A stretch of 64,000 nucleotides of DNA. It comes from Eunapius fragilis. Taxonomy: Eukaryota > Porifera > Demospongiae > Spongillida > Spongillidae. The notes below the pieces were generated by a model. That model made no database searches. It had not been told where the DNA came from and was given only the letters and a program-made list of their open reading frames with translations. The DNA is taken from assembly GCA_963681505.1 (NCBI GenBank), contig OY811987.1:805201-869200 (forward strand). The letters run 5' to 3'. A program made the translations under genes and the position numbers. The first letter of the stretch is position 1. Every line of letters begins with the position of its first letter. Positions 8,157-31,527 of the stretch are shown here, piece by piece.

Positions 8157-9413
8157 CTAGCTGACTGTTTTGTATAATTTTGGTCCGACTGGGTAAATGT
8201 CACTTCTCTCTACAAGTCTGTCAATGGCTGTGAGGATCCTTGAAGCAGGGATGTTCCTGTGGCTTTGGTTCACAAAGTCCACTATCCAGCTCTCAGATAC
8301 ACCATGCACTATTGGGGGCAACAGAGGTGTGTGGTCACATGTCATGCTGGGCAACAGAGGTGTGTGGTCACATGTCATGCTGGGCAACAGAGGTGTGTGG
8401 TCACATGTCATGTTGGGCAACAGAGGTGTGTGGTCACATGTCATGCTGGGCAACAGAGGTGTGTGGTCACATGTCATGCTGGGCAACAGAGGTGTGTGGT
8501 CACATGTCATGTTGGGCAACAGAGGTGTGTGGTCACATGTCATGTCATGCTGGGCAACAGAGGTGTGTGGTCACATGTCATGCTGGGCAACAGAGGTGTG
8601 TGGTCACATGTCATGGGCAACAGAGGTGTGTGGTCACATGTCATGCTGGGCAACAGAGGTGTGTGGTCACATGTCATGTTGGGCAACAGAGGTGTGTGGT
8701 CACATGTCATGTCATGCTGGGCAACAGAGGTGTGTGGTCACATGTCATGCTGGGCAACAGAGGTGTGTGGTCACATGTCATGCTGGGCAACAGAGGTGTG
8801 TGGTCACATGTCATGCTGGGCAACAGAGGTGTGTGGTCACATGTCATGCTGGGCAACAGAGGTGTGTGGTCACATGTCATGTTGAGCAACAGAGGTGTGT
8901 GGTCACATGTCATGCTGGGCAACAGAGGTGTGTGGTCACATGTCATGTTGTGCAACAGAGGTGTGTGGTCACATGTCATGCTGGGCAACAGAGGTGTGTG
9001 GTCACATGTCATGCTGGGCAACAGAGGTGTGTGGTCACATGTCATGTTGTGCAACAGAGGTGTGTGGTCACATGTCATGCTGGGCAATGCTCCATTCACG
9101 CCACCAAACAAAAAATGGGGTTTGAAATTGTGACAGTAGTTCTCTAATTTGGAATTGCCCTTCCCTGATGGTACCCTAGGCTTAGGACAATGGTTTGGGT
9201 GCCAATCCACTCAGAATGGATTTGACTTCTCATATGACAGGCTGGGCTCTCATTCAGAGCGAAATACAAGAGTAAGGGTAAGGGGCTTTCCCTTACCTGT
9301 CCTGGGACTCTTCTGTTGTATGAAATGGAGGATAGATGGGCAGAGATGCTTCTCTTCCACCAGCACCTGGGAGGGAAGGGTAGGGTAGGGTTCGTAATGG
9401 TTGTGCCCCTCTC

Positions 9414-11033: not shown

Positions 11034-13055
11034 CAATACGTATAACAAGCGCAACGAAGCGTCTTGTCACAGTAGGCGCAACACACAAACCTCTTGGCAA
11101 AATCAACTGGATTTCGCGAGACATCCACTTTCCGGATATGACTAACTTAATTTAATACGGGAGTTCAACAAGTCAGTACCATGTATTAATGTCGCGTGCG
11201 TGCGTAGTTAACGATTCGGCGACACTTATCTAGGGTTATAATCAATGGTTAGCTACATTTTGTCAATGGTTAGCTACATTTTGTATTATAAGCATATTAT
11301 ACTTCCATGTTATATTATAGGGTACATTTATAAGTGGTGTTCGCAGCACCTACACAGTGTGTAAGAGAGAGCGATTAACTTTCAACAAAACGGTGCATAT
11401 TTAACAGACTCTCTACTTTCTTCCTGATAAGTATAATTTTGTTTTTGAAATAAACAAGCGCACGGGACAATTTTCCAAGCAAATTATAAGTTCGCTTTCG
11501 GTAGTGTTCGTCAACGCAATTGGTCTTTCGGCATGCTAAATAGGTATTGTTCGTCACCTATATTTACGCACTGTGCGTAACGCTAGAACATGTACAACCT
11601 CCTCTTGGTCTGGTGTCAAGGGGGAAGCCCTTCTACTTGCACAATAGATTCTCATATTTTGTTTCCTTTTGTTTTTTATTTATGTGAACTTGATATATGG
11701 TATTGCATGTTTATATAAATAAATTTTTAAAAAAGAAAAAAAAAAAGAACATGTAGTAGTACTACAATCCTAACTATAGTTGGGCGTAGCCCGACTAGTG
11801 TAAATACTTGTTATACAGTATGATCTCAAATCCATACGTAATACAGCACATTGCAGTAAAATTTATGTGCATACGTGCGGCTTTATTAGTGGCAAATCAA
11901 AAGCATACATTGATGCGTGAATTAGCCTTGCCTCCGAACATGCACAAGTATTCTGAATAAGGAAAACAAGTCTTACTGTCAATAGGAAAGATAGAGAAGC
12001 CGTTTTAAGCCCTGAAGCTTAAGATGACTATATTGGAGTAGTCACCATAGCTGTAATTGACACAGGGAGTGTTCTAAATTCCCAAACCATGCACTAGGTT
12101 TCATCGAAAATGAATATATTGTACTGGATGGAGTCCTTCTTACTACCAACACCCCTTCAACTGACAAGCGTACCTTCATTACGTACCTCACAGGCACAAT
12201 TTTCGTTACTAGGTGGTAGCTATTTTACGTCATTGTTTTGCAGCAATAAAAATAGTTAATAGCGCTTGCCCGGTGCACTGAAAACAGCAATATTATGTAC
12301 TCTACCCACGCACAGTGAAGAGTTCTGTGTCCTAGAACAGATGGTCCTAACATCGGCCCTAACAAGTGAGATACTCATAGGACCACGGAGTTCAAAAGGT
12401 CAGATGTGATGTCATCCTGGCGGCAATTAAGAATCGCTAATAAGCCGGATGTTTGGTCAGAAAATATTGCGTCAGACTACGAATACTATTATCAATCTGG
12501 ACAATGAAGGTACGGGTATGTACGTGCCGTACGGGTATGTACGTGCCGTACGGGTATGTACGCGCCGTACGGGTATGTACGCGCCGTACGGGTATGTACG
12601 CGCCGTGTATGTGCAAATGTGACTTACGTGATACGTATGTGCGTGTGTAATGTGTGTATGTGTGTGAATAATTTTGTTAATTACCTTTACCACAGGTGGC
12701 GTTGTTGCCGCTTACGCGTAAGTGTGTCACACACATATGCGCACATTGAACACACTGCACAATGACATCGATGGGTTTTATTATTTTTAAAATTCATCCC
12801 GCGGTTATATAATGGACCAAAGCCGACACCAATATCAATACAAAGGGGGGGGGGGGGGTTGGGGTACATGCCCCTATTTTACTCTCTCTCTCTCTCTCGC
12901 ACCATTTTCACTCGCACTCATCCCTAACTTTTTTCGTGAAAAGTTGTAACGCTACTGGTGTGGATCTCTGGTAAGGAAGCACTTTTTAGTCTTCTTAATA
13001 TTCAGGCCATGTAAGGAATGTGTGATGTAATTACCAGTAACATATTCGTTACCAG
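11034..13055. other. Intergenic region between STN1 and the first WAP/Tg1 gene
   Basis: No gene recognised. 11034-11124 on the minus strand is an open stretch upstream of STN1 that could be a 5' non-coding exon. AT-rich sequence follows to about 12450, then a 19-bp tandem array (12505-12610), a GT/TG-rich patch (12630-12670), a 14-base G run near 12846 and a short CT run near 12880. The missing first exon(s) of the WAP/Tg1 gene may lie here. Confidence 0.5.
12505..12610. repeat. 19-bp tandem repeat
   Basis: Five copies of TACGGGTATGTACGTGCCG, the later copies with CGCG in place of CGTG. It encodes spurious short open frames. Confidence 0.9.
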
Positions 13056-15220
13056 GGGCAACGTACCTGTCATGTCCTCCATCTTCTGGTGGCGTTGGCA
13101 TCTGTAGTGAAATGTGCTCGTCAGATGCCGACTGCTCCCAGAGTGAGAAGTGTTGTTCCAATGGGTGTGGCCATTCTTGTGCCAAGGCCTTGGTCGTTCC
13201 CTACCACAACCCACCGCTCAAGTGCCCCGCCTCTCTCCCTGGATCCTCCTGTACCCCCCCTTGCCTGGCCAATACAAACTGTAGCAGTGGGGAGCTCTGT
13301 TGTCCTGCGAGCTGTGGGTCCACTTGCGTACGAGGGGAAACCCCCACCCCCTTGTGTCCCGTTGTGCTGGACCAGGTGTTGAACACAACTCTAATTGGAG
13401 CCTACGTCCCCAGCTGCGAGGCAGATGGAAGCTTCTCTCCAACACAGTGTCATGGGTCAACAGGATACTGTTGGTGTGTGGACCCAGTTTCTGGAGTCCC
13501 TACTTCAGACATGGTGCGGTTCCAGCACCCACAGTGTACACGTAAGTCTCAACTGGTTTAGTCTTCCCTCCTCACTGCAGTAACCATCCACACTCCACTC
13601 CAGCACTCACGTTCTTCTCCTGCCCCGCCCCCCAAAGTGATGTGGTGGGGACGTGTGATGAGCAGTGTGATGCAGCCACTGGGTGCCAGAGGGGACAGAA
13701 GTGCTGTTCCAATGGGTGTGGTCATGCTTGCACCTCTGGCCTCCTCCCCATCCCCTACATTGCTCCACAACGAGGTGCTCAGGCCCCTTTCTGTGAGGGT
13801 GTCCGTCAGCAGGCCACCTCCAAGGGTCTGTTGGGTGCCTTTGTGCCCCAGTGTGATGGTGCAGGCAATTTCCTGACCCTCCAATGCCACGAGTCCTCCT
13901 GCTGGTGTGTTAACCCAGAGAACGGCCAGCCCACTTCGGACATGGCCTCAGGGTCTGGTGTGGATGCACTACCCTGCTCAGGTATGTTGTGTTGTGGTGT
14001 GATTATGGATGGTTGGGGGTTCATATTGCTCTATCTTACTTCTCCCCCACTTCCTCCCCCACCTCCCTCCTCTTCTCCCTCCTCCTCTCCCCCATCCTCT
14101 TCTCCCCCCTCCTCTCCCCCATCCTCTTCTCCCCCTATCCTCTTCTCCCTCCTCTCTCCTCTCTCCTCTCCTCCCTCTTCTCCTCTCTCCTCTCCTCCCT
14201 CCTCTCCTCCCTCCTCCCTCCTCTCCTCTCTCCTCTCCTCCCTCCTCTCTCCCTCCTCTCCCCCACTGCCTCGTTCTGATTAAAGGTTGTTATTACAATG
14301 GCACAGTACATGCAGCTGGAGACAGGTTTGACAACAATACCTGTGGTGGATTTTGGTATGCGGAAGGGATATGGGTTGAGTGGTGGGGTGGTTGTTGATG
14401 AAGGTGGGAGTGGGTTGGGTATGTGTGTGCCTGACATACCCATGCAACGCATGTATGCACACACCCACAAGCACACGCACATATACGTGCTTTGCCTGTC
14501 AGAGAATGCACCCGCGTTATGTATCATGTCTCCCAGCGTGTGTATGCAGGATAAGCATGTCGTCTGTGCAGACGTTCATTGCAACACTGAAGAGGAGTAT
14601 GTTGAAGGTGAGATGGGAGGTGTGGTGAAGGTGAGATGGAGGTGTGGTGATGGTGAGATGGAGGTGTGGTGAAGGTGAGATGGAGGTGTGGTGAAGGTGA
14701 GATGGAGGTGTGGTGAAGGTGAGATGGAGGTGTGGTGAAGGTGAGATGGAGGTGTGGTGAAGGTGAGATGGGAGGTGTGGTGAAGGTGAGATGGGAGGTG
14801 TGGTGAAGGTGAGATGGGAGGTGTGGTGTTCATTACAGTTAAGAGTCTGGTGTACAATTGGCTCCGCCTACAGCATCAGACTGGTGGAGTGCTATATTGA
14901 TGGTGTGCGTGGTGATTGTGATAGTCCTATCTCTGGTGACAACGGTACTCTTCACGGTACGTGAAGATGGAAACATCACCATGGTCACCGTATGTATTGT
15001 TATTGCAAGGTGGTGGTGGTGGTGGTGAGAAGACAGGGCCAGTTTAGACACATGAGTGTTCCAACGACAGAGGTTAGCTATCAGCCCTAACTTTGGGGGG
15101 GGGGGGGGGGGGTGTTCCAACCTGCAAGTACCTACTCCTCCACAGGAATTTCCAACATTCTCAAAGTGTCCTCCAAGCGATGAAGAAGATGTACCGAAGA
15201 GCAAGGAAATACGAGCATAA
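13056..15220 (+). CDS. Single-pass membrane protein with WAP, thyroglobulin-1 and VWC-like domains (copy A; 5' exon not found)
   Basis: Exons: 13056-13541, 13604-13981, 14286-14355, 14537-14607, 14844-14956, 15010-15072, 15146-15220; phases all join. Domain order: two WAP four-disulfide modules ([34 protein letters not shown]), a thyroglobulin type-1 module ([18 protein letters not shown]), WAP ([15 protein letters not shown]), Tg1 ([15 protein letters not shown]) and a VWC-like half-cystine cluster over two exons (GCYYNGTV, then [16 protein letters not shown]). Then come a membrane helix ([19 protein letters not shown]) and a cytoplasmic tail ([15 protein letters not shown], then acidic residues ending KSKEIRA). 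WAP and Tg1 domains are commonly protease inhibitors, so a surface protease inhibitor or adhesion role is inferred. The WAP/Tg1 exons are bounded by phase-1 introns. The exon with the signal peptide was not identified. Confidence 0.82.
14040..14275. repeat. CT-rich low-complexity intron
   Basis: TCTCCTCCC-type repeats fill the intron before the VWC exons of copy A. Confidence 0.9.
14605..14830. repeat. 22-bp minisatellite
   Basis: About ten copies of GAAGGTGAGATGGAGGTGTG plus GT (22-23 bp), beginning exactly at the splice donor of the exon ending at 14607. The unit contains the donor-like AAGGTGAGA, so the array offers a series of pseudo-donor sites. Confidence 0.9.
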
Positions 15221-15439
15221 ATGTATCATATTTCATTCATTTGACATTGCTGAAATTTCATATTTGGTTTTGTTTTATTGACTTTGTGCTGTTTTTACTG
15301 ACCCCGCCTCTCTTCGAAGAGGCATAAAAAACCGTGCGAGTTTACATCTGCCCTCAGGTGGAAGGGCTGCCCTCCACAGTACAAAGTTTGGCTACTCATT
15401 AGATTATAGTACTGGTCATAGATTGTATAGTGTACCCAC

Positions 15440-16445
15440 AACTTTAAGCACGACACACACGGAGCGATATCGCTAAAGATTCCCGGATTTTTTTTTTCCA
15501 TCATTTATTAGACTACCAACAAATTACGGACAAAATGCAGGAATCGGCAGCAATATTATCGCGTGCGGCTCATGCGGATTATAAAATATAATTACCCTTC
15601 CATGGCCATTGTCCGTGACGTGATACTGCAGCGATGAAGATGATACAGTAATGTAGTAGTACTGTATGCACACGTAGGACTGTTCAGGTACTTGTAAGCA
15701 CGTAGAAGGCGTGGTCAACTTAGGTCGATATACAAGTATGGCCACAGCCATTACTACAGCACTTCTGACCTCCGAGACAATCATCATCTCAAGAGCACTG
15801 ATCGACACATGTACACACGCCGACTGTATCGGGTTTGGGAACAGGACATCCCCGATTTCCTGCACCATCGTAATGAGCGACATTAAAATTATTACCGCAG
15901 TATAAAGGTGGAGATGCAACTATCGCAGTTCGCTAATGCCACGAGGCTCATCACTGCACGTGAGGGAAAGAGCAACAAATTCCCTGCACTAACTCTCGAC
16001 GGCTGTCTTACCTGACAAGATAATGACAATCTGTCGTATATCAGTGCGTGCACGTGCATGCGATATACGAGAAAGAGAAAACCTTTTAAACATATCGCCA
16101 AGACACGTATACATGTCTGGTGCACACCACTACTTACCAGCATTCTCTGTAAGCGCAACTATTTCATACGGTGTCCTAAATTGATTTTATAGTTGTGTAC
16201 CAAATAAACAGGATTCAGAGTGCACTGCAAATGAACTTTTTTTTTTAAACGGAGGGTACAATAGGTTGCGGTGTCATCCTGAGAAGGATCCGGTGTATTG
16301 AAAAGGTATTATAGCGGTGGGTGCAGGGGCCTGTACAGTGTCGCATCATAATAACCGCAACGTGATGCAATACGTTCTTTAGAGTCCCCGCTCCTTTATC
16401 GGTCAGCAAAACATTATTTTCCAACTTGTGAACGATGGAGGTAAT
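15440..16445. repeat. Segmental duplication block A
   Basis: About 1 kb matching 22661-23660 with scattered differences (shared start GACACACACGGAGCG, shared end AACGATGGAGGTAATG). It carries the broken antisense WAP exon. Its last about 110 bp recur a third time at 27958-28075, 430 bp upstream of gene copy B. Confidence 0.85.
15720..15851 (-). pseudogene. Broken WAP-domain exon (copy of 22930-23055)
   Basis: The minus strand still reads [19 protein letters not shown], the WAP core, but a TGA interrupts it just upstream (QCS, stop, DDD). The splice-acceptor AG that precedes the intact copy is GG here. Two independent lesions make this a pseudogene, while its duplicate at 22930-23055 is intact. 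Confidence 0.75.
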
Positions 16446-17781
16446 GCCTTACCTTACTTTTCATCCCCTACGGACGGCCCCATGCAATGAATTTTAAATG
16501 AGCGGATTTTCATTAACTCAATCAACAACCAATTATAAGATACACTGTATTGTACTTCCCGGGATGTATACTACATGCCGCGCTCTCCTGTAAGACGGAA
16601 AGGTACAGAGGGGGGGGGGGGGGGGGGGGGGTGACATTTATGGCTATATAGCTATTCAACAAACATATAAAAGCCTCTTCACTTTTTTAGGAGATAATTA
16701 TAATGAAAACAATAGTACAACATTACAATACACAGAATAATGACATAAATAAAATAATATGAGTTAAGATAAAATAATACATATCTGAGCCACTTAATAT
16801 CAAGTTCCGGCAGACCAGCCCCATCATCGATAGCTGCACCATTTCTCCATTTGGTTCGAGAACCCCGTAAGCACAAATTTGTGGCCCTCAAAATAGCAAA
16901 AGATAGCCTGGATCTTATCCATCCTGCTACTTCTGGATACGATTTCAGTTTTCCATTTTCATAGCCATTGTTTCAGCAAGGGGCGGAGTTTATTAAAGCA
17001 TTCTGCTTCCCTACCTAGAACTCCGTCAACAGAAACAACTAGGGGTATACGAAGGAGGCACGGCGTATTTCTGCAGCACCATGCACAATACCTTCTCATC
17101 TTCTCTTCTTCGGCAGATGATAAGAATAGCAGCAACATCCGCTCTGTGTGAATACGACGGAGCGTCAGTTCAAGGGCTGCCCACCACAGTACTGTACTAC
17201 TCATAGATTACATAGTGTACTCATAACTGAAGCAGAAATTTCGGACAATTCCTGGCCAATTTTGCAAACGTCCGTCACATTTCCCGCGCACGCGTCCATA
17301 GAAATGTATGGAGTAATGTTCATTTTTGAATACCATAAATCAGGGAAAGTCGCTATTTAAGTTTGAAAGAAGCCCCATGATGTATAACATGATAACCTAT
17401 CACTCTGCCATGCAGTTTCAGTCCCTGCTGCTGGCTTCCTCATAAGGATTAGTACTCCTCCATAGAGATGTATGGAAAATTGCTTTTTATAATGATTTTT
17501 TATCACTATTCTTTTTTATTACTCTGAATGTAAGATAGGAAGGTATTGTTTGACTCATTTTAGATTATGCTTATATGATCAAGGTAACTTTCTACCAGGT
17601 TCTCGTGCCCACAGACTTCTTCCTCTGACTTCCTGGGCACTTTTGGTCATGAGGGTACCCACTTCATTTGAATATGTTTAAAAATTAACAAACGCTCATG
17701 GCAGTAAGTTAGGGCTGGCCACGTTGGAAGTAAACGAACTTTAACTGCACGCAAATTTGGTATGTTCTTTGTTTGGGACTA
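16446..17781. other. Non-coding stretch between duplication block A and the hAT-like element
   Basis: Holds a 20-odd base G run (16610-16631), AT-rich sequence, and at 17160-17240 a short match to 15355-15440 (both with AAGGGCTGCCC and CCACAGTAC). No convincing gene; short open frames at 16679-16891 and 16959-17204 are not supported. Confidence 0.5.
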
Positions 17782-17887
17782 CAGCGGCGGATCCAGGGGG
17801 GGGGGGGGGGGGGGGCACTCGGGGCACGTGCCCCCCCCCCCCCTCAATTTATAAATTCATAACTTTTCGGGCCGCGTTTTATTATAA

Positions 17888-18176
17888 CAAGTAAATAAAA
17901 ACATTCTCTATGAGAAAGTTGGTGGCATATAGGATTTGAAGGCAATGGTGGTGTAAAAAGGAAGGAAACAAGGGTCTAGTAATAAGGAAAAATGGAATAG
18001 TCCTATATTTAGCACACGAACAACATATTATATCCTACATATAGAAATGTGCTAAATATAGGACTATTCCATTTTTCCTTATTACTAGACCCTTGTTTCC
18101 TTCCTTTTTACACCACCATTGCCTTCAAATCCTATATGCCACCAACTTTCTCATAGAGAATGTTTTTATTTACTTG
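17888..18176. repeat. Perfect 128-bp inverted repeat with 33-nt loop
   Basis: 17888-18015 and 18049-18176 are reverse complements along their full length, separated by 33 nt. Ends are CAAGTAAATAAAAACATTCT. A partial copy lies at 26113-26170, so this is a mobile foldback or MITE-like family. Identical arms mean recent origin or ongoing arm-to-arm correction. Confidence 0.93.
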
Positions 18177-18212
18177 TTTCATTGATTTTTATTCATACCC
18201 GATTATGAGCCG

Positions 18213-18442
18213 TATAGAGGGGTTGCAGTGTCATCCCGGGAAGGTTCATAACAATCGCCGCCATGTTTTTTGGTGCCCTAACCATTGATTTTTTTCAATA
18301 AGTGTCGAGCACGTACGTTCACGTACGTGACACGCATTTATAAACGATGACGTTTAATAGTTAGGACACCAAAAAACATGGCGGCGACACCAAACAAACA
18401 TGGCGGCAACCTTCCCGGGATGACACTGCAACCCCTCTATAG
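18213..18442. repeat. 230-bp foldback element with 34-bp perfect terminal inverted repeats
   Basis: Ends TATAGAGGGGTTGCAGTGTC (18213-18246) and the exact reverse complement at 18409-18442; an inner inverted pair (18257-18284 and 18359-18386, ATGTTTTTTGGTG) extends the stem. The terminal motif GGTTGCAGTGTCATCC recurs singly at about 16264 and 23473, inside both copies of the duplicated block. Confidence 0.88.
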
Positions 18443-18567
18443 CATATTAAGTAATCCATCTTGATATGAGAGGGAGGTTGTAAAGGTACGACATACCATT
18501 GAGTGACCTTAACTCTTTTCGCCGAGCGAGATGCACGTTCAGGACTATGGCAATATCGCTGTCTTTT

Positions 18568-18850
18568 TTCAGGATCTGCTCGATACCTTTCACGTCGAGA
18601 GGTCCGTTCCTTTTCAGGATCTGAGGGGGCTTTTAAGGGGCGGCCGAAATAGAAGAGAGGTTATTAATTGTCGCCCCAGCGCGATGAACCCACAAACGCA
18701 TTTTGTATCGGGCCAGAAGCAGACAGCACCCTCTCCTCCCCCCTACTAATCGCATCTCGATACCTTGCGCGTCGAGAGATCCGTTTCTTTTCAGGCTCTG
18801 CTCGATAGTTTTCACGTTTGAGAGGCCCGCTTCTTTTCAGGCTCTGCTTT
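18568..18850. repeat. Diverged tandem repeat of about 60 bp
   Basis: Three to four imperfect copies of a unit containing CTCGATACCTT, GTCGAGAGGTCCG and CTTTTCAGG. No coding content. Confidence 0.7.
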
Positions 18851-20439
18851 AATTGTAGTTCCGCTCGGGCTGAATCTAATACGTCGTCTCTAGTTTTGAG
18901 GTACTATGCTCGTCGTTTGGCTTTCTTCTTATCCTGACGTGCATGAAGGCATTTTGAGAAAAAAAAACTTCACTAAGTTACAAAGAGCGTCAAACCTACA
19001 ACGATCGAATAACAAGAATGATTATAGTACGCACGTGCACGTTATTAATAATACATAACCGCCAAAGTTAATTACCACAATGTGTAGTGCCCAGACCGTA
19101 CACATTTGATGTATACTGCTAGTACTTCGTATAAAGAGCGACGTAGGACCTATCCGAGTCGTGTCAGTGCAGTAAGCTATACGTGATTTGCTAACACAAC
19201 CACCGATAATGTCATGTAGCCTCGAGACGTTTTGACCACAGAAGCGAAAATGCCAGTGAATTCTGAAGCCATTGGTGTGATTTTCATTTCTTAAAAGTGT
19301 TCCTATCCCGAGTTATGCGTGGTCAAGAACAAGAACAAGAACAAGAAGAAGAAGAAGAACGAGAAATACGTGGGACTGGGTACGAGTTTCAAAAATTGTT
19401 TTGTTCTCTACAACCACGCGGTTTTGTGACATCAAACAAACACGAAACTGCTTGTTGTTGCCTTCTTGTACGACGACGATAACAAGGTAAGCCATCCGCT
19501 CGTCGGGAGTCTTGTTAGAAGCGGGTCGCGTTTTTTTAATGACATTCATAATCGGGGTCAAATCCTATATGAGAGTTACTAACGTAACTCTCGATAGCTG
19601 CACGATTGCGCTGCCTATTGATATCCGCACGCATGAACTCTACTACTGTACTATATCCCGGGCCCCCCGATACGCGATCATACCCCCCCCTCCCCCCCCC
19701 GCTCTTCGTATCGGGCCAGAAACCGAGCGGCCCCCCCCCCCCTCCCTCCCCCCGCTCTTCGTTTTGAGCCAGAAACCGACAGCACCCCCCCCCCCCCCCC
19801 CCCGCTGAAGCCGACCCCACCCCACCCCCAGCCACACCCACCATCCCTGCCCCCCCCCCCCCCCCCCCTAAAACCTGTATCCGCCGCTGGACTATATAGG
19901 GAGCATGTTTTTGGATCGATAAAAAGCCGTTTGAAGTTTATGGTCTGTCAAACGCGGAGTAGTCCTAGGTCTATTCGATAAACATTATACATAACTACGT
20001 GTGTTTGTTTTCTGAAAAACTAAGGCATCGCTGAAGGCATAATATATAAGTAAGGCATTATAGGCCTATAGCCTTTTATATTCGACCACGTGGTAGCGCT
20101 ATGAGTATATGACGGCTGGCTACTCCCTTCAACCTGGATGTGTTCTTTTTTTGGCTCCCGCTGCAGTGACGGATCTAGGAGCGCGCCATCTCCTCGTCAA
20201 GGTTACTAGGAGCTGACAGCGACCTTCCAGACTTCCTACCTAGCTACTGAAAGGTATTATCTATGTCAACATCTCCTCAATCCGCTTGAGGCCGACTACC
20301 CTGCAATTTAAGGGCTGTCTGTTATAGCATAAACTCCGACGCATTGTCCAGTTTTTGATTCAAGATAGCTGGCATTTAGAACCATCACCCCCTGGGGACA
20401 TATTTCCAATGCCACCTGAGACAAATAATGGATTAGCCA

Positions 20440-20625
20440 TTATTTCCCATCACTGTCCCCTCCTTCATATCACTGTCCCCCTCCTTCCCATCACTGTCCC
20501 CCTTCTTCCCATCACTGTCCCCATCACTGTTCCCTCCTTCCCATCACTGTCCCCTCCTTCACATCACTGTTCCCTCTTCTCCATCACTGTTCCTTACTGT
20601 CCCCACTGTCCCCTCCATCATGTTG
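20440..20625. repeat. 20-bp tandem repeat
   Basis: Imperfect copies of CCCATCACTGTCCCCTCCTT. Confidence 0.88.
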
Positions 20626-21845
20626 TCATATCCTGGCAGACTGTTTTTCCCCCACTGGTATTGTATTCTCAGGGTATTCCCTCCTCCTCCCCCCAATCTG
20701 GTCAGTTAAAAATAACTCCTCCTGAGTGTTAGTGAAGTTTACATACCCAGGTGGTCTGCCAGCAGCTCCGGTTCCAGGCTCAGTGGGGCTGCCAAAATGA
20801 CTGGCCGTCTGGTATGGGCCAGGGATTGGACCCACCTTGATGATAATGTGGCATACCTCTAGCCAGCCACCAGGTGACAAACTCAAATGGAAAGCTTTGT
20901 GTGGTCATATAATGCCTACTGAAATGCAGACTATGGGACATTTTTATTAGGCTGTGTACATGTATGGTGTTGTCACAAGTTTGTATGTTTATGAATCAAA
21001 TGTGTTGTAGAAGGGCAAAGAGCTGGTAATGTATTAGAGAAGTAACTCAGGTCTTTGCAGTTTCATATGTACTGCCCATTGAATTAGGATGTTATTAGTT
21101 GTGTAAACTTCTCCCATCCCTGAGGGCTAGTGAGAGAGATTGTTCCTGACAACTGGAATAGGCTTGTACATGTACATGTAGGCTTGTACTGGTACATGTA
21201 CACCCTTGACTTAATTCAGGTGATCAATGTGAAAGCAGTTCAGGAATTGATTCTCTGGTCGCGGCTAGACCATGCTGTGAATAAGATCTATAAGTTGTCT
21301 GCACTTATGACCTATATATATCAGTTGTCTCTCTTGTTACTCCTGTACTACATGTTTTGAATGAGCTCTGCATGATGTTGCCTGGAGGAGGTCATAATGT
21401 TTGCCTTCAAACATCCATTGGCCTATGAATGTGATAAAATGGTGTGCATTCCAACAGATAATCATGTACATGCATGTAGCGGGCTTTTCCACTGTACTTT
21501 TGTGAACCTGATGTGTAGCAACCATGCACAAGAGTTATTTCAGGGTTTTACATGTAGCTGTTCATATGCATGATATGACGCTTTCCTTGTATATTTTAGA
21601 AATCATAAGTAATGTACATCTCCTTGTAATCACACATGTTGCACAACTGCTATGGACTTCCTCTTTTCTACGCATCATATTACACATTTGCTGTATGCTA
21701 AAACGTATATTGTGGGATCTTGCTTTAACTTCGTGTTTTTATCCCCGAATCCCACGATTATCAAAACCCACTATGGATTTTTGCTGATATGACCAAATTG
21801 CACCAGCACATTAAAAATGATACAGATGGGGTAAATAATCGTAAG

Positions 21846-22292
21846 CTACATGCATACAACAGAAATTTCTCCATGTGCTGTTTGATAGCTTCGAACGCTT
21901 TGGCTTAAAACGTACTCGAACGAAACGGTAAAAAAACCACTACCATTCTCATTCCCGCCTGATGTAGCCACACCTCGTGTTAAAATACTCAATCGGTTAT
22001 CATGATTCAGTAGTTCCACTATTGTGTCGCGTGAGAAATGCACTTTGGTACCTGGGAACCAATAAAACACCCAACTAAATTTGCGCATGGTATGTAGGAT
22101 ATACTTTTGATAGTGTTTCGGCAACAACTGCATGTCAGGACCTGTTGTTATTATACACTGTCTGGCACGCAGAATTTTTAATTTGCGCACTTGCGCTGCA
22201 TCAATCCACATAAGCGTGGGCGTACCGTAGTAGTATCGTGAAGACTCGGTTTTATCTTTGCAGAAACGGAGGTTTGGCCCAATATATCGCAC
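21846..22292 (-). CDS. Hypothetical 148-aa open frame
   Basis: Longest unexplained open frame of the accessory region; ATG start, stop at 21846-21848. Composition is ordinary and no low-complexity repeat explains it, but no domain is recognised, no signal peptide or membrane segment is evident, and it lies among repeats. It could be a piece of a transposable element or chance. Listed so that it can be tested. Confidence 0.2.
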   Translation of the reverse strand: MRYIGPNLRFCKDKTESSRYYYGTPTLMWIDAAQVRKLKILRARQCIITTGPDMQLLPKHYQKYILHTMRKFSWVFYWFPGTKVHFSRDTIVELLNHDNRLSILTRGVATSGGNENGSGFFTVSFEYVLSQSVRSYQTAHGEISVVCM

Positions 22293-22660
22293 TCTTACTA
22301 TTTTAATGTTCTCGTGAGCAGAAGTCTCGTGAGCAATATTTAATATTAAAAAATATTTAAAAGATGACGCAAGGTATTACATAATGGATACGTTTATGAA
22401 ATAATTAATTAGCTCGGTTGTTATTTCTTTAATGGATGCTTAACGTTCTTTTCATGATACATATTATAATCAGACCGATTTTTTTGCGAATACTGAATGT
22501 GTCTGGAATTCAATTAGAAAAAATAATTTTAGTTAATTGATTTGAATTAATAATTTCTTGTCTTGAAACATGATAAATCATTTTTAAAGGTGACAAATTT
22601 ATTCATGAAAACAGAATTCTATCACAATTTTACATATTCACTCGTGTCCTCCATTTCTGG

Positions 22661-23660
22661 CAATGCGACACACACGGAGCGGTATCGCTGGAAATTCCTG
22701 GATTTTTTTTTCCCGTCATTTATTGGACTACGAACAAATTACGGACAAAATGCAGTAATAGGCAGCGATTTTATCGCGTGCGGTTCATGGCGGATTATAA
22801 AATGTAATTAACCCTCCATGACATGATACTGCGGCAACGCGCAGGTTGATGAAGATGATACAGCAATGTACTGTATGCACACGTAGGACTGTTCAGGTAC
22901 TTGTAAGGCACGTAGAAGGCGTGGTCAACTTAGATCGATATACAAGTATGGCCACAGCCATTACTACAGCACTTCTGACCTCCGAGACAATCAGCATCTG
23001 AAGAGCACGGATGGACACACTGGCCGCCTGTATCGGATTTGGGAACAGGACATCCCTGATTTCCTGCACCATCGTAACGAGCGACATTAAAATTATTACC
23101 GCAGTATAAAGGTGGAGATGCAACTAACCAGTACCATCGCAGTTCGCTAATGCCAGGAGGCTCATCACTGCACGTGAGGGAAAGAGCAACTAAAATTCCC
23201 TGCACTAACTCCCGACGGCTGTCTTACCTGACAAGATAAGGACAATCTGTCGTATATCACGTGCAATATATACGAGAAAGAGAAGACCTTTTTAACATAT
23301 CGCCACAAAACCAAGATACGTATACATGTCTCGTGCACACCACCACTTACCAGCATTCTCTGTAAGCGCAACTATTTCATGCGGTGTCCCGAATTTATTT
23401 TATAGTCGTGTACCAAACAAACAGGATTCCGCAGAGTGCACTGCAAATGAACTTTTTAAAGAGGGTATAATAGGTTGCAGCGTCATCCTGAGAAGGTTCC
23501 GGTGTATTGAAAATGTATTATTATCTATCGAGCTAAGATTAGCGGCGGGTGCAGGGGCAAGTGCAGTGTCGCATCATAGCCGCAACGTGATGCAATACGT
23601 TCTTTAGAGTCCCCGCTCTTTTACCGGTTAGCAAAACATTATTGTGAACGATGGAGGTAA
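22661..23660. repeat. Segmental duplication block B
   Basis: Copy of 15440-16445 with the intact WAP exon. At 23660 it joins directly to a copy of the 3'-terminal exon region of the membrane-protein gene (compare 15160-15380), so the order of the two blocks is reversed relative to copy A. That is expected if a whole tandem unit was deleted between them. Confidence 0.85.
22930..23055 (-). CDS. WAP-domain exon (terminal exon of a small secreted protein; 5' exons unresolved)
   Basis: The complement of 23055 down to 22930 reads one complete WAP core in 41 codons plus stop (GCPVPKSDTGGQCVHPCSSD then [18 protein letters not shown], ending ISI). It has eight cysteines in WAP spacing, preceded by a good acceptor (GTGCAGGAAATCAG). 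WAP proteins are usually secreted protease inhibitors or antimicrobials. Upstream minus-strand sequence to about 23380 must hold the signal-peptide exon but no clean start was found. It lies antisense to, and between, the membrane WAP/Tg1 copies; the duplicate at 15720-15851 is broken. Confidence 0.55.
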   Translation of the reverse strand, partial: GCPVPKSDTGGQCVHPCSSDADCLGGQKCCSNGCGHTCISI

Positions 23661-23882
23661 TGTCTTAAAGTGTTGTCCAAGCGATGAAGAAGTAGATGCA
23701 CCGAAGAGCAAGGAGATACGAGCATAAATGTATCATATTTCACTCATTTGACATGAAATTTGGTTTTGTTCTATTGACTTTGTGCTGTTTTTATTGACCC
23801 CGCCCCTCTTCAAAAAGGCATCAAAAATGGTGCGAATTTTACATGTGAGGTGTGGGCCCTCAGGTTGATGGGCTGCAGACCC
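23660..23882 (+). pseudogene. Orphan copy of the 3'-terminal exon of the WAP/Tg1 membrane-protein gene
   Basis: 23664-23722 matches 15166-15220, still reading [19 protein letters not shown] and a stop, followed by the same 3' flank (CATAAATGTATCATATTTCA) and a shared region to about 23882. No WAP, Tg1 or membrane exons precede it, so it marks a lost third gene copy. Confidence 0.8.
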
Positions 23883-24119
23883 AAGGCGGGGGCTTGAGCA
23901 CCCCCAAATTTTTCTATGAGAATAATATTAAATTGTTGACCGTATCAGGTGTAATTAGAATTAACCACTGGTGGCGGCCTGTTCACGCTAAAGTTCATCA
24001 GGACCATCGACAAACGATCCATCGCTTGATTTGAACCCTCATCATTAGCATGCTTAGGAGCGGTATGAATGGAGCTGAACTGTGGTTATTCAAAGTGTAG
24101 CCAACAAATTTATGAACCG

Positions 24120-24660
24120 TAATGCCAGCCGTCACATTATGTTTGGACTTTTCATTTGACTTAATTTGTATGAAAACCAGGCATTCGCAATTTGTGATTG
24201 AACTGCATGCGCATGCGTGGAGAAAAGTCAATCATTTACGTAACGTACGTTACGAAGTCGAAGCGAGCATGTCACTCATCTCCGTGAATGATGAAAATGC
24301 AGCAATGTGTGTTAACATGCAGTTAAAGAGGAATGTGATGCTTGGCTTCGACTCCCAGAGATCAGATCAATAGATGTCATGGTTCCGGCTTTAGATCCTT
24401 TGGCATGGAATGGTAACACACAATTTCCCACTATAATTGCAAAGCTTGCTCAATAGTATCTGGCTATTCCTGCATCATCCACCCCTTCAGAAAGTCTGTT
24501 TTCAAAAGCCAAGTTGATCCAGGCAAGCGATGGGCCTACTTCCCCAACGGCTGGAGGTATCAGTTCTCCTTAAGCATAATGCAAGAATATGCTTCGAAAG
24601 AAATAAGTCAATGAGCACTATAGATGTGCCACTTGCTCAAACTACCATAATTTATAACTG
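24120..24660 (+). pseudogene. hAT transposase C-terminal relic
   Basis: 24122-24373 is open. After a frame change, 24440-24540 encodes YLAIPASSTPSESLFSKAK, the hAT dimerisation signature, and after another shift VLLKHNARICFERNKSM to a stop near 24658. At least two frameshifts. It belongs to a different hAT subgroup from the relic at 1181-1530 (SESLFSKA against AERSFSAL). Confidence 0.7.
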
Positions 24661-27600
24661 ATCTGTTCTGATCGTATTGGTACATGGAGGGGGCGCTGTC
24701 TGGTGTCCGGACTGAAAGGTCAGGCCGGCTGGCCTTTGGCAGCCCTGTTGGACAATAAGGCCTGCGCCCCGAAATATTGAAACGATGACATCATGCATCA
24801 TGACCTAACCAAGCACTTTGTATTTTCGAGCTATATAAGGACTGTCCATTTTAGTATCCATCATATATAAATTTTGTGCCACAACTCTGTAGCGCCCGCA
24901 AGCTGTAGCGTTCGCAAGCTGCGTACCTCAATCGGATGTCCTCCACGGAGAACGAAACAGTGGACCACTGCCAATTTTCATAGGAAAAAGCTAAACGTGA
25001 ATAGGTAGTGGAGGGTTAAGGCTATCCATTATTTAACCATACCCGGGACAGTATATAAAACCACCCCTGGACAAGCTTATCTACACCCCCCGGGACAGGC
25101 TTTAAATACCCTCCGGACAAGCTTCTATTTGGTTACATCTCCCCTGGACAAGCTTATGTTATACCTGCTAACCCCTCTGAGACAGGCATTTATACAACCA
25201 TCCCCCCAGGACATATTTCCAACCACCCCCCCCCCCCCCCCCCCACCCCAAGGACAAGCATACTACCCCCTCGGGACAGGCATTTATACTACCCCTTTCA
25301 GGACATATTTCAAAACCCCCCCAGGACAACGTCATGGTTCCAACCCCCCCCCCCCCCCCCAGGCACCATTTGTTGTCATCTGTATGTACGGTTGAATAAT
25401 GGAATAGCGTATAGACTATAAGTGCGGCCGGCTGAAATGATGGCGCTACAGGTCGTCAAATATCGCTGATTTTGTCAAGGATAACGATACATATGTTGCA
25501 ATAATTTGTTCCAAACGGTAATTCCAGGATTATTAACACATTTGAGATCCATTATAGAGCTAGGCTTACATGATTGAATGGAAGGAAGTTCGTTGCTTTG
25601 TGACATAGTTGGAAGGTTCTTCTTCATCCTTCTATTTTGAGTTAGTTTAAAACCTTACTTTCTCAAGTTCATTAAGTATGCGAAAAATGATCGATCTAAC
25701 TTTAGCGTACAAAATCACCTTGATCGGAACAGCTGACGTCTTAGAAGGTGTCTGGACATTCAATGTGATGTATCAACTTGTTGTTTCACAAAGTATCACG
25801 AAAATCTGACGATCCGAAGGTGATTTTTTATCGCCCGAAACATGGTATGGTCATTAACAGTATGCGCGCGTGTTGATCACTAAGTTTATTTTTTCAGAGT
25901 GTGAAGAATAGAACCTACTGATTGGCTTGTCCAGGAAGTGAATTTCGACAGCTCTCAATCACAAAGGATGTCTTACCTTGTGGACAAAGCCAAAGGCTAC
26001 TCTTGGGACTTGGGAGTATTACTAACAGGGCCGCGGATCTCAATGCGGCTTCATACATTGTTTGGAAGAAAAAAAAACGGCTAACATTGTTACATTGTTA
26101 TTGTATATATTTCTATATGCCACCAACTTTCTCATAGAGAAAGTTTTTATGAGAAAGTTTTTATTACTTGTAATTTGCACTAAGCAGCTTTTCCATCAAT
26201 TTGGAACATATATATGATACACAAGGGTGTCTTCTTGTATCTCCTTTCCCCCAGAACAATGGCAGTAAAAATACAATCTCTATCCCCTTTGAGGTTTCTT
26301 ATCTCTGACCATCTCTCTGGAGATATAGCCAATCCTCTTTGTAAAAGCCTTACATGCCATTTACATGCATGTATGTATAAGTGATACCAAATTTATATTT
26401 TTATGGTTGATTTTTTTGGGTGTTGGCAGAAGTGATTGCTATATAGGCCAGCTGCGATTGCTAGGCCAGCTGTGATTCTTGTTCCGTACTCACTGTAATC
26501 TCTGACTTCACCAATGAATGCTTCCTATTTTGATCATCACTTAAGTGATTTCAAGTTAATTCTCAGGTAGTTAGTACTTCCCTAAGTTATGCACAAGGTT
26601 GAAGACCTTTACTACAGTGTTTTCATGCTGACTGATGTGGTTGCTAAGGCTTGTGGATATTCCCTCACAAACATGCATGTAAGGAAGAGTCAAGCTATTT
26701 TTTTGACTAGGTTTGTGCCATTTTCGGATATTGCAAAACAGCTAGGGTCTCAGATGCCATATACATATCAGAACATCTGTAGCTGATTCAAGCCTTGATG
26801 TCCCTGGAACATCCACTCTGCTACAATGTTTAACACCAAGCTAGGTATCTAAGGTTATAGTGCTGTGTCATAACAATAGGGATGTACTATACAACTGCAA
26901 ATGCATTTGCTTGATGCAGTTCCAGAGGCTGCCTACCTGTCTATAAATATAAGCAAAGAGAAGGCACAACAATTGACAGTTTGTCACCTGTACGATGCAT
27001 GTGAGTGCACCGTGCATATTGACAACAGCATTATATGGTGGGGTGTGTGAAAGAGTGCTAATGTACTTTTAAGGCTTGATTGCACACCCTTAATTAATTA
27101 GCTGGTGAACCACTCCTTCCCACTGGCATGCTTCAGTTATGGACATGAAGTGTTACAAAACCATAGCATAATATTTACTGGTCAATGACTATTAATATAC
27201 ATTAACATCTTACTCTTATGTTTTAGCTATTAATGAAGTAAGACAACCATTTGATACTAGCATTTGAAGTCATTGCTTGCAGGAGCTACACTATTAGCTG
27301 GGCTTTGGGGATACATGGCTGCATCCTCCTCAGAGTGAAATGCCACGCCATGCAAGGCCTGAATTAATGATTCAAACTGGTATATGGTGTCCTTTTTGCT
27401 TGCTCTCTTATAAGACATGGGTTTTTCACACTTTGCAATGCAAGCTGAACGTGTTGACAATGGTACCACATTATACTTGTCATGATTTTCAAAACAGGTA
27501 GCCAGGTTTAGGCCGAAAACCATAGGCGTAGGAACAGCCTTAATAGGGGGCCCAAAGTCATATTATCCATCGATTTTCACCGTACATGGTGATAGGTGAT

Positions 27601-28507
27601 ACCATGTAGGGTGGAATTCAATGAATAATATGACTTTGGGGCCCCCCTCCTATTAAGGCTGTTCCTACGCCAATGAAAACAGCGGGCCGCACTTAGTGGA
27701 CGACATAAACACACTACTTGAAGCTTTAACATTGCCTGTATGTCAGACTTACATGTGGGAAAATAGGCAGCTACATGCAGTTCGCGCATCTTTAATACCT
27801 ATGATCTTGCCGTACCTCATATGCCTATGAAAACATGGCACGTGTATTAGCGTAATTTATCGTTTCAGGTGTGTCTTGAAGCCAGATGATTGCATCTTTG
27901 CAAGGCAGATCGTTGTGTCGATAATGAGGCTATATATAACTGCCATGATTTCCGTAACGCTCTAATTATCAAACTAACTCCGCAACGTGATGTAATTACG
28001 TTATTTAGAGTCCCCGCCCGGCCAGCAAAACATTATCTGCAAACTTTGTGAACGATGGAGGTAATGTAACGTCTTACCTGGGGGGGGGGGGGGGGGGGGG
28101 GGGAATGTTAGTGGAAGGGACAGTTTGACTCTTTGTTCTACTTTTGCATAGGTAATCGGCCGAGTTCAGACTATATTATCGGCTTAATTATTATATTATT
28201 TTTTTCACAGCGAGCAACTCTATTCACGGTAATATGTAAGTTAATGAGTAACCACATGCGCGTCCGTATAACCCTGTTACGTTTTTCTTCGTGTTCTAAC
28301 AGTCGTCGTGTCAGTATGGAGTTCAGGTATGAGTATGGGCCTGCATATTAAATTATCACGCCGCGCGCGTACGTTGACTTGGCATACAGATAGGATTTTA
28401 TTATTTGAAAAAATGAACGATAGTCGAGGGTATTGCGCACCTCACTGACAAGCCAACGAGATGTATAGTTTATACTCCTATGTTTATATGGAACGTCTTG
28501 TTACCAG
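24661..28507. other. Accessory intergenic region
   Basis: Holds C-rich degenerate repeats around CCCCTGGACAAGCTTAT (25070-25380), a partial copy of the 128-bp foldback (26113-26170), the 27.5-kb foldback, a third copy of the block end (27958-28075) and a 24-base G run at 28080-28103. The minus-strand open frame 27257-27523 (88 aa) has no recognised family. The 5' exons of membrane-protein copy B should lie near the right end but could not be identified. Confidence 0.5.
27525..27672. repeat. Foldback element of about 150 bp
   Basis: GGCGTAGGAACAGCCTTAAT at 27525 is inverted as ATTAAGGCTGTTCCTACGCC at about 27652-27672; the stems continue through GGGCCC and AAAGTCATATTAT with small gaps. Confidence 0.85.
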
Positions 28508-31116
28508 GGGCAACGTACCTGTCATGTCCTCCATCTTCTGGTGGCGTTGGCGTCTGTAGTGAAATGTGCTCATCAGATGCCGACTGCTCCCAGAGTGAGA
28601 AGTGTTGTTCCAATGGGTGTGGCCATTCTTGTGCCAAGGCCTTGGTCGTTCCCTACCACAACCCACCGCTCAAGTGCCCCGCCTCTCTCCCTGGATCCTC
28701 CTGTGCCTCCCCTTGCCTGGCCAACACAAACTGTAGCAGTGGGGAGCTCTGTTGTCCTGCGAGCTGTGGGTCCACTTGCGTACGAGGGGAAACCCCCACC
28801 CCCTTGTGTCCCGTTGTGCGGGACCAATTGTTGAACACAACTCTAATTGGAGCCTACGTCCCCAGCTGCGAGGCAGATGGAAGCTTCTCTTCAACACAGT
28901 GTCATGGGTCAACAGGATACTGTTGGTGTGTGGACCCAGTTTCTGGAGTCCCTTCTTCAGACATGGTGCGGTTCCAGCAACCACAATGTACACGTAAGTC
29001 TCAACTGGTTTAGTCTTCCCTCCTCACTGCAGTAACCATCCACATCTCCACTCCAGCACTCACGTTCTTCTCCTGCCCCGCCCCCCAAAGTGATGTGGTG
29101 GGGACGTGTGATGAGCAGTGTGATGCAGCCACTGGGTGCCAGAGGGGACAGAAGTGCTGTTCCAATGGGTGTGGTCATGCTTGCACCTCTGGCCTCCTCC
29201 CCATCCCCTACATTGCTCCCCAACAAGGTGCCCAGTCCCCTTTCTGTGAGGGTGTCCGTGAGCAGGCCACCTCCAAGGGTCTGTTGGGTGCCTTTGTGCC
29301 CCAGTGTGATGGTGCAGGCAATTTCCTGACCCTCCAATGCCACGAGTCCTCCTGCTGGTGTGTTAACCCAGAGAACGGCCAGCCCACTTCGGACATGGCC
29401 TCAGGGTCTGGTGTGGGTGCGCTACCCTGCTCAGGTGATTGGGATGGGGACCAGATTAATGGTAGTCAGATCTGCTAGCATTGAAGGAGGTGGGGTAGAT
29501 AGAGGGAAGGGGGTGGGTAGAGGGTAGTAAGTGGGGCAGATAGAGGGAAGAGGGTGGAGCAGATAGAGAGAAGAGGGTGGGGCAGATAGAGGGAAGAGGG
29601 TGGGGCAGATAGAGGGAAGAGGGTGGGGCAGATAGAGGGAAGGGTATTGAGCAGATAGAGGGAAGGGTGTGGGGTAGATAGAGGAAGGTGGGCGGGATTG
29701 ACACTATTGTCAATGGACTCAATGACTAAATGTGTTCAAAAGGTGAGCAGGTTGCGACTCCATGGGATGTGTATGCGTGTGTGTGCGTGTGTGTGTGTTC
29801 TTGGCACAGAGAATTGGCATGAAGATTAGTATTAGGTCATGGGGGGGGGGGGGGGAGGACAGTAAATTAGAGTTGAAGGTGCTATGAGATCATGAGGGTG
29901 AGGAGGGGGGCATTGAGGCCAGGTGTTGTGTCATCATGCCCTTGTGTTCACATGGAGTTCATGTCCTTGTGTTCATGTCCTTGTGTAAACAGGTTGTGAT
30001 TACAATAGAACTCATTATAACCATGGGACCAGCTTCACTGCAGCAGATGGACATGACACCTGGTATGTTAGTGGCAACAGAGTATGTAATATCACCCTTA
30101 CTTCTGTCACCATAGCACCTGCACTGCTGGACAAGTGATCTGTGAGACCAGTATGTCAACGGGTGGGAGAGGGGAAGAGGGGGGGAGGGGGGAAGGGGAG
30201 AGATATGTGTAATGGCAGAACACCAGGTTGATGTAGTTTAAAGCATGCACTACTGGGGACTAGCTAATGTGTGGCCTGGGGACCAGCTGTGATGCATGCA
30301 CTTCTATGGCATTGTTTTCTCTCAAGCCATGAGTGTCGAGACATTCTTCTCCTGCCCCGCCCCCCAAAGTGATGTGGTGGGGACGTGTGATGAGCAGTGT
30401 GATGGAGCCACCGGGTGCCAGAGGGGACAGAAGTGCTGTTCCAATGGGTGTGGTCATGCTTGCACCTCTGGCCTCCTCCCCATCCCCTACATTGCTCCAC
30501 AACAAGGTGCCCAGTCCCCGTTCTGTGAGGGTGTCCGTCAGCAGGCCACCTCCAAGGGTCTGTTGGGTGCCTTTGTGCCCCAGTGTGATGGTGCAGGCAA
30601 TTTCCTGACCCTCCAATGCCATGAGTCCTTCTGCTGGTGTGTTAACCCAGAGAACGGCCAGCCCACTTCGGACATGGCCTCAGGGTCTGGTGTGGGTGCG
30701 CTACCCTGCTCAGGTATGTTGTGGCGAGATGTGGTGTGTGTGTGTGTGTGTGTGCGTGTGTGGGTATGCACACCTGTGCATGAAGTGCTCCTCTTCTCAA
30801 CAGGTTGCCAATATCGTGGGAAGATGTACGCCAATAAAGAGATGTTTGACTTCGATCAGTGTGGTGGATATTGGTTAGGATTCGCTGCTGACATGCACTT
30901 GTCTGTCTCCTCCCTCCCTCTGTTCACATGCACCCCTCCTCCCTCCCTCCCTCCCTCCCTCCCTCCAGCACGTGTGAGCAGCAGCACGTGGTGTGTGCAG
31001 CCGGCTTGTGTTACCACCCAGCAAGCCCCAGTAACAGTCCTGCTGGGTCAGCCCCCCCAGTGCAGCAACAAGATGGTACCCTGATGGCTTCCTAACCTCA
31101 TGTGTATGACACACGT

Positions 31117-31166
<50 letters not shown>

Positions 31167-31527
31167 GTCTGCACACACACACGCATGCACACACACACAC
31201 ACACACATCAGAAGAAGCAGGACAATGGCATACACTGTTCCTGGCATGTGTGGTGACTGTCATTCTTCTGTCTCTGGCTACAATGGTGCTCTTTGCTGTA
31301 TGTTATGTTCTCCTTTGCTCTTCTGTGCACTTACGTTGTGCCATCTCAACTCAAAGGTGGTGGTAGGCGTGGTCCGAAGACGTAGCCAGTTCAGACATGT
31401 GAAGGTTCCAATGACTGAGGTTAGTTTCTGCTTTGGCAAAACATGTTCCCAACTTTTCCATGCGCAGGAATTAACAACATATTACCCAGCAAATGGTGAT
31501 GAAATGAAACCATCAAAAGTGATATGA
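28508..31527 (+). CDS. Single-pass membrane protein with WAP, thyroglobulin-1 and VWC-like domains (copy B; 5' exon not found)
   Basis: Exons: 28508-28993, 29057-29434, 29993-30062, 30116-30150, 30327-30713, 30804-30873, 30969-31075, 31212-31297, 31357-31419, 31468-31527; all phases join. Order: WAP-WAP-Tg1, WAP-Tg1, VWC-like pair ([20 protein letters not shown]), a second WAP-Tg1 exon, a second VWC-like pair ([23 protein letters not shown]), membrane helix ([20 protein letters not shown]) and cytoplasmic tail ([15 protein letters not shown], ending KPSKVI). It has one WAP-Tg1/VWC unit more than copy A, explained by duplication of phase-1/phase-1 exons. The first two exons and the intron between them are nearly identical to copy A; everything after is strongly diverged. 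Function is inferred as for copy A. Confidence 0.83.
29480..29710. repeat. 23-bp minisatellite
   Basis: About nine copies of GGGGCAGATAGAGGGAAGAG plus GGT in an intron of copy B. Confidence 0.88.
31120..31205. repeat. (CA)n microsatellite
   Basis: Two CA runs just before the exon that encodes the membrane helix of copy B; the acceptor is at 31210-31211. Confidence 0.95.

Follow-up and report, generated by a model that had tools for sequence, protein, structure and literature searches.

Near-identical inhibitor-domain exons in two otherwise diverged membrane WAP/thyroglobulin type-1 genes of the sponge Eunapius fragilis, probably homogenised by interlocus gene conversion

Closest described systems and the sponge locus

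Gene conversion between paralogues is already well known as a mechanism, and the nearest described counterpart of the genes treated here is the Siglec-11/16 pair. The published account describes neighbours ~9 kb apart in which conversion has recurred in the first four or five exons, including the ligand-binding domain. A simple repeat marks the 5′ limit, the converted exons are under relaxed constraint, and the two products signal oppositely (PMC5701461). Here, we analysed a 64,000-nucleotide stretch of the E. fragilis genome (C17:805201-869200, GenBank contig OY811987.1; hereafter the window, whose own numbering is used unless a contig is given) from an assembly of 219 Mb in 24 contigs. In it, two membrane-anchored genes with WAP and thyroglobulin type-1 (Tg1) domains, A and B, lie ~15 kb apart in the same orientation and share an almost identical exon 1-intron 1-exon 2 block, the rest of each gene having diverged; the pattern is unusually sharp.

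Like the Siglec pair, A and B are neighbouring genes (15 kb apart in our case) with putatively homogenised ectodomain exons above different membrane parts. The differences are nonetheless clear: (i) Siglec-11 and Siglec-16 are sialic-acid-binding immunoglobulin (Ig)-type lectins, whereas A and B carry WAP/Tg1 inhibitor-type domains; (ii) the converted Siglec region is described as extending to upstream sequence and introns, whereas the A/B match halts at exon edges; and (iii) the Siglec proteins signal oppositely, whereas no signalling motif was recognised by eye in A and B. Ruminant CEACAM1 paralogues and CEACAM32 likewise underwent conversion over some parts of a membrane-protein gene only; there, however, the CEACAM32 tracts are reported in the leader exon and introns and not in the Ig-domain exons, i.e., the reverse of A/B (PMC7042247). 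For BMP8A/B, DDX19A/B, and TUBG1/2, a highly similar intron was reportedly required to tell conversion from purifying selection; we applied the same intron criterion, with the difference that those mammalian pairs were compared across species and A/B within one genome (PMC2720389). Among the literature matches listed for this domain combination, or for conversion in sponge genes, nothing was directly on point.

Gene A (13056-15220, + strand) comprises seven recognisable exons encoding 408 residues, and gene B (28508-31527, + strand) ten exons encoding 580 residues. Both are open through the final stop, all internal exon borders are GT-AG, and exons 1 and 2 are of phase 1-1 in both genes. The parts are as follows.

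13056..13541, +, gene A exon 1 (phase 1-1): WAP, WAP-like, and Tg1 domains; putatively converted block
13542..13603, +, gene A intron 1: within the near-identical block; no substitution and one indel relative to B
13604..13981, +, gene A exon 2 (phase 1-1): WAP and Tg1 domains; putatively converted block
14286..14355, +, gene A exon 3: diverged; N-terminal half of a VWC-like domain
14537..14607, +, gene A exon 4: diverged; C-terminal half of the VWC-like domain
14874..14956, +, gene A exon 5: membrane-spanning segment (hydropathy of the best 19 residues, 3.17)
15010..15072, +, gene A exon 6: QFRHxxVPxTE motif next to the membrane
15146..15220, +, final exon of gene A, with stop
28508..28993, +, gene B exon 1: putatively converted block
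28994..29056, +, gene B intron 1: within the near-identical block
29057..29434, +, gene B exon 2, first copy (B2): putatively converted block
29993..30062, +, gene B exon 3: diverged half of a VWC-like domain
30116..30150, +, gene B exon 4: diverged and shortened half of a VWC-like domain
30327..30713, +, gene B exon 5 (B5), the second exon 2 copy: distinct 5′ edge (extra MSVE) and introns of its own; elsewhere 96.5-98% identical to the other copies
30804-30873 and 30969-31075, +, gene B exons 6 and 7: second VWC-like domain and stalk
31212-31297, +, gene B exon 8: transmembrane segment (best 19-residue hydropathy 2.92)
31357-31419, +, gene B exon 9
31468-31527, +, gene B exon 10 with stop

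The near-identical block, its limits, and its probable origin

When the window was compared with itself (blastn), 13048-13983 matched 28500-29436 at 97.87% identity over 937 columns, with 19 mismatches and 1 gap. Exon 1 differs between A and B at 12/486 positions and exon 2 (A versus B2) at 7/378, so that a preliminary description made from the sequence, which had spoken of about a dozen differences per exon, was right for exon 1 and overstated the count for exon 2. Intron 1 (62/63 bp) contains no substitution and a single 1-bp indel. The match begins 8 bp upstream of the exon 1 acceptor, in agreement with the earlier remark that identity starts a few bases from it, and ends 2 bp past the exon 2 donor.

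Silent sites separate this block from everything around it. Synonymous divergence (dS) between A and B is 0.035 in exon 1 and 0.034 in exon 2, against 1.12 in the VWC-like exons and 1.20 in the transmembrane and tail exons (1.19 over the five downstream exons of A and their B counterparts). Expressed as counts rounded from these estimates, synonymous changes occupy 7/206 sites in exons 1-2 versus 44/73 outside (Fisher p = 2e-24). Divergence is thus far from uniform along the two genes, uniformity being the outcome that the preliminary description had named as fatal to its proposal. Its claim that the pair is not a simple recent gene duplication also holds: recent duplication of the whole gene was rejected because the tail exons and the other introns have diverged. 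For the introns, this statement covers the pairs tested, at the level of shuffled sequences. Seven flank or intron pairs (six A versus B and one B copy versus B copy, representing a subset of the intron pairs) were each set against 200 shuffles, and five were unremarkable, their scores being reached in 32 to 186 of the 200.

We consider it very probable that the identity of exon 1, intron 1, and exon 2 arose through repeated interlocus gene conversion between the end members of a tandem array that has since decayed. A and B would be the surviving ends of an old array of membrane-anchored WAP/Tg1 genes; long after they diverged (dS ~1.2 in the unconverted parts), the exon 1-intron 1-exon 2 DNA would have been copied between them, exon 2 copies within gene B would have been homogenised as well, and the remaining introns would have diverged or been swapped for tandem-repeat-rich sequence. 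Several observations argue for such a history. The silent sites and the intron of the block are far more alike than the sequence outside; the block is bounded at both sides, which makes a single crossover unsuited; and the two genes lie among relics of their own family. The abrupt stop at splice sites would follow if homology good enough for recombination survives just in the exons and the tiny intron 1.

Could selection alone have preserved the block? Very strong constraint on exons 1-2, the rest of each gene decaying in the ordinary way and no exchange taking place, would fit the nature of WAP and Tg1 domains as disulphide cores with conserved cysteines. However, A and B resemble each other as closely at synonymous sites and in intron 1 as they do in protein sequence, and the 12 nonsynonymous and 7 synonymous changes between A and B in exons 1-2 correspond to a ratio of nonsynonymous divergence (dN) to dS of ~0.54. 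With an intron free of substitutions and a block dN/dS of ~0.5, purifying selection on the protein fails to explain the identity; it was rejected as the cause, and exchange-free constraint is the least probable of the explanations considered.

The agreement between match ends and splice sites bears on a further alternative, in which reverse transcription of a partly spliced transcript that had kept intron 1 supplied the copy that patched the paralogue. Such an RNA-templated patch would place the ends where they are found, yet it must accommodate the retained intron 1, and the match reaches beyond the exons: the 8 bp of common intron 5′ of exon 1, together with the 10 bp past the donor shared by A and B5, favour a DNA template over spliced RNA. 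We regard this route as highly unlikely.

The exon 2 copy carried by B5 is informative in this respect. By blastn, 13609-13991 (A exon 2) matches 30341-30723 at 97.1%, and 29062-29436 (B2) matches 30341-30715 at 97.9%; B5 is thus ~2-4% different from both. It starts with bases encoding an extra MSVE, its own 5′ exon edge, and the intron upstream of it has no similarity to intron 1, while on the 3′ side just the first 10 bp of its intron agree with those of A. In all three pairwise comparisons, the match ends no more than 14 bp from the exon edges. The three dS values (A-B2, 0.034; A-B5, 0.077; B2-B5, 0.065) are hardly accounted for by a single event, and B5 and the other exon 2 copies were likely homogenised too, in at least two events. 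The locus is a clean natural example in which the limits of conversion can be read straight from exon-intron structure, in three embedded exon copies that sit among different introns and are 2-4% apart.

These properties also weigh on exon-module transfer, i.e., duplication of DNA with exons 1-2 and its insertion into a gene without them, which the preliminary description had offered as the alternative to conversion confined to the inhibitor exons. Being symmetric (phase 1-1), exons 1 and 2 could be inserted in frame, and exon 2 does occur twice in gene B. Transfer would nevertheless require breakpoints no further than 8 and 2 bp from splice sites, and B5 has a different 5′ edge of its own; because B5 keeps that edge and its own introns, a conversion tract laid into a pre-existing exon is favoured over an inserted exon, which would bring its own edge. 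Moreover, A and B agree in the order of their later domains and have homologous transmembrane and tail exons, so they were already genes of the same kind. Of the two proposals, conversion is strongly supported and module transfer is unlikely.

An error of assembly or polishing (a chimera, a collapse, or reads of one copy overwriting the other) might also produce local identity, and the assembly does contain runs of N, namely 200 bp at 45443-45642 and 2,500 bp at C14:5515378-5517877. The former is the sole such run of the window and lies outside the genes in question, with none between A and B. In addition, the 19 copy-specific substitutions are evenly spread along the tract (Kolmogorov-Smirnov p 0.82), both coding chains are open to their final stops, and the three exon 2 copies sit among different introns. 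The chance of an artefact is accordingly very small, though a little above that of constraint without exchange.

Returning to interlocus conversion, base composition is in keeping with it. Third-position guanine-plus-cytosine (GC) content is higher in the putatively converted exons than in the others, both in gene A (168/288 versus 56/121; p 0.03) and in gene B (250/417 versus 74/164; p 0.002), as biased conversion predicts.

Several points nevertheless weigh against this explanation. The GC contrast can have other causes. Two of the seven shuffle comparisons, the 500-bp 5′ flank (2/200 shuffles) and the 3′ flank (15/200), were marginal, and faint residual homology in the A/B flanks is possible. 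An RNA-templated patch that had kept intron 1 would likewise end the match at splice sites, and the shared intron bases partly represent splice-signal consensus. The comparison draws on a single genome assembly. Finally, a longest-run test on pairs of a second Tg1 cluster, described below, gave no support for conversion in 9/10 pairs (P > 0.05).

The case warns that phylogenies and dates based on inhibitor exons in families of this sort would err by a large factor.

Locus history and a second Tg1 cluster

Between and beside A and B lie further stretches related to them.

15451..16451, -, counterpart of 22666-23667, lying downstream of gene A; decayed, with a stop inside its WAP frame
22666..23667, -, single-WAP stretch related to 15451-16451 (85%)
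23663..23876, +, relic C: final exon, with the sequence downstream of it, from an A-like gene that has lost its body
27968..28066, +, array-unit remnant 0.4 kb upstream of gene B; 81% identity to 16345-16446

The last exon and downstream sequence of A (15159-15370) matches relic C (23663-23876) at 81% identity and has at most marginal similarity to B, whereas for exons 1-2 of A the closest relative is B; parts of gene A thus differ in their nearest relative. We infer that head-to-head units once stood here in tandem and that the genes in the middle have been stripped of their bodies. Within the single-WAP stretch, a hand-built gene model on the - strand (23356-23351, 23199-23100, 23063-22930) is open over 79 amino acids and scores 44 bits for PF00095; its product (22930-23356) is predicted to be secreted.

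Genome-wide domain counts are lower bounds, as the best candidates only were scored. At least 7 WAP stretches exceed the cut-off, all at the A/B locus, and one weak WAP-like stretch with four stops is found on contig C2 (E 0.002). At least 11 Tg1 stretches were recovered: 5 at the A/B locus, 5 in one cluster on contig C14, and 1 at a further C14 site. The search for further copies suggested by the preliminary description turned up relics at the locus and found just two intact genes of this kind, A and B.

The C14 cluster, which served as a control, contains five Tg1 genes:

C14:5505796-5541149, genes G1-G5

TIL and pacifastin domains are above cut-off in G3, and the homologous G2 exons score as pacifastin too; a recent publication reportedly argues that pacifastin outside arthropods is ancient (PMC13388995). 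G2/G4 (90% over 1.8 kb) and G3/G5 (92% over 2.4 kb) are similar across introns and exons and look like ordinary segmental duplicates, the G2/G4 similarity dropping shortly past the exon that follows Tg1. Other pairs have the Tg1 exon in common and mostly unrelated introns. The first 34 codons of that exon, a split picked after inspection of a segment with no intron inside it, are far more alike than the remainder, with silent changes between G2 and G3 at 1/25 versus 23/46 sites. In a codon breakpoint scan of 5/10 pairs (G1-G2, G1-G3, G2-G3, G1-G5, and G4-G5), the observed value was reached by 0, 15, 2, 694, and 6 of 2,000 permutations, respectively. The tenth pair of the longest-run test mentioned above, G3-G5, is one of the segmental duplicates. 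These results are suggestive of conversion in the C14 cluster, with constraint staying an alternative there.

Domain content, possible function, and minor features

Well-known families of protease inhibitors are found among WAP, Tg1, TIL, and pacifastin domains. Pfam stretches amount to 3 WAP and 2 Tg1 in A and 4 WAP and 3 Tg1 in B. The WAP profile (PF00095) scores 62.9 and 91.0 bits against a cut-off of 20.8, with the eight-cysteine core readable by eye; the Tg1 profile (PF00086) is likewise above cut-off, with a visible CWCV motif. The VWC profile (PF00093; cut-off 27.6) was narrowly missed by the VWC-like exon pairs of A and B (25.0, 27.2, and 18.8 bits), so the label VWC used previously comes close but lacks formal support; it is the top profile for A and the second B copy, and FnI_RECK and TILa rank higher for the first B copy.

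Among solved structures, the first WAP domain of A has nawaprin and anosmin-1 as matches and shares with them the WAP core and a short loop between cysteines 2 and 3, while the Tg1 domains match thyroglobulin and the p41 invariant chain, sharing the QC and CWCV motifs. These are all different proteins, and by name no WAP-Tg1 membrane protein occurs among 21 structure matches listed. Nawaprin is not known to inhibit proteases. Because their domains include inhibitor families, it is plausible that the A/B proteins are multi-headed protease inhibitors, here anchored in the membrane; the recognition or protease-defence system suggested in the preliminary description would be a candidate role.

No convincing first exon of A or B was found by a simple scan for single-exon signal peptides in ~4-4.6 kb upstream of each; upstream of A, 13/14 of the matches listed were one GT repeat. 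Both models consequently begin at an internal acceptor, and the extracellular orientation of the inhibitor domains is a presumption.

The preliminary description saw a family kept uniform outside and diverse near the membrane. This over-reads the data: the transmembrane and tail exons (dN 0.365, dS 1.20; dN/dS ~0.3) display ordinary old divergence under purifying selection, their diversity reflects mostly age rather than diversification, and the intact genes found number two. Its statement that tail exons and other introns are diverged stands for the exons, and for those introns compared with shuffles. The 21-codon juxtamembrane exon is itself under purifying selection (dN 0.18, dS 0.79), and the tail thus probably has some function.

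A and B contrast a near-identical putative ectodomain (exons 1-2, dS 0.034-0.035) with different tails (transmembrane and tail dS 1.20), a contrast that in paired receptors goes along with different signalling and co-expression. It is a speculative and rather doubtful proposal that A and B are an invertebrate counterpart of such receptors, in which conversion would keep one protease- or ligand-binding ectodomain on two anchors or tails, directing one target to two outputs or sites; the C14 cluster may repeat this at sub-exon scale. Were A and B to share a target but differ in output, the paired-receptor principle would reach beyond vertebrate immune receptors.

Tandem-repeat arrays start at 14042, 29483, and 30730, i.e., 61, 49, and 17 bp past the three exon 2 donors. 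As ~5% of random positions have an array within 61 bp and the proximity was spotted post hoc, it was not used as evidence. Elsewhere in the window are two large minisatellites, at 8316-9087 (33 bp x 23 copies) and 58846-60507 (26 bp x 64 copies). A foldback element at 17880-18185 consists of two perfectly complementary 131-bp arms; the best 40 of 1,504 first-look candidates in the genome (its own copy included) were all 99-100% identical, near full length, and spread over many contigs, and the element appears to represent a very young, abundant mobile family.

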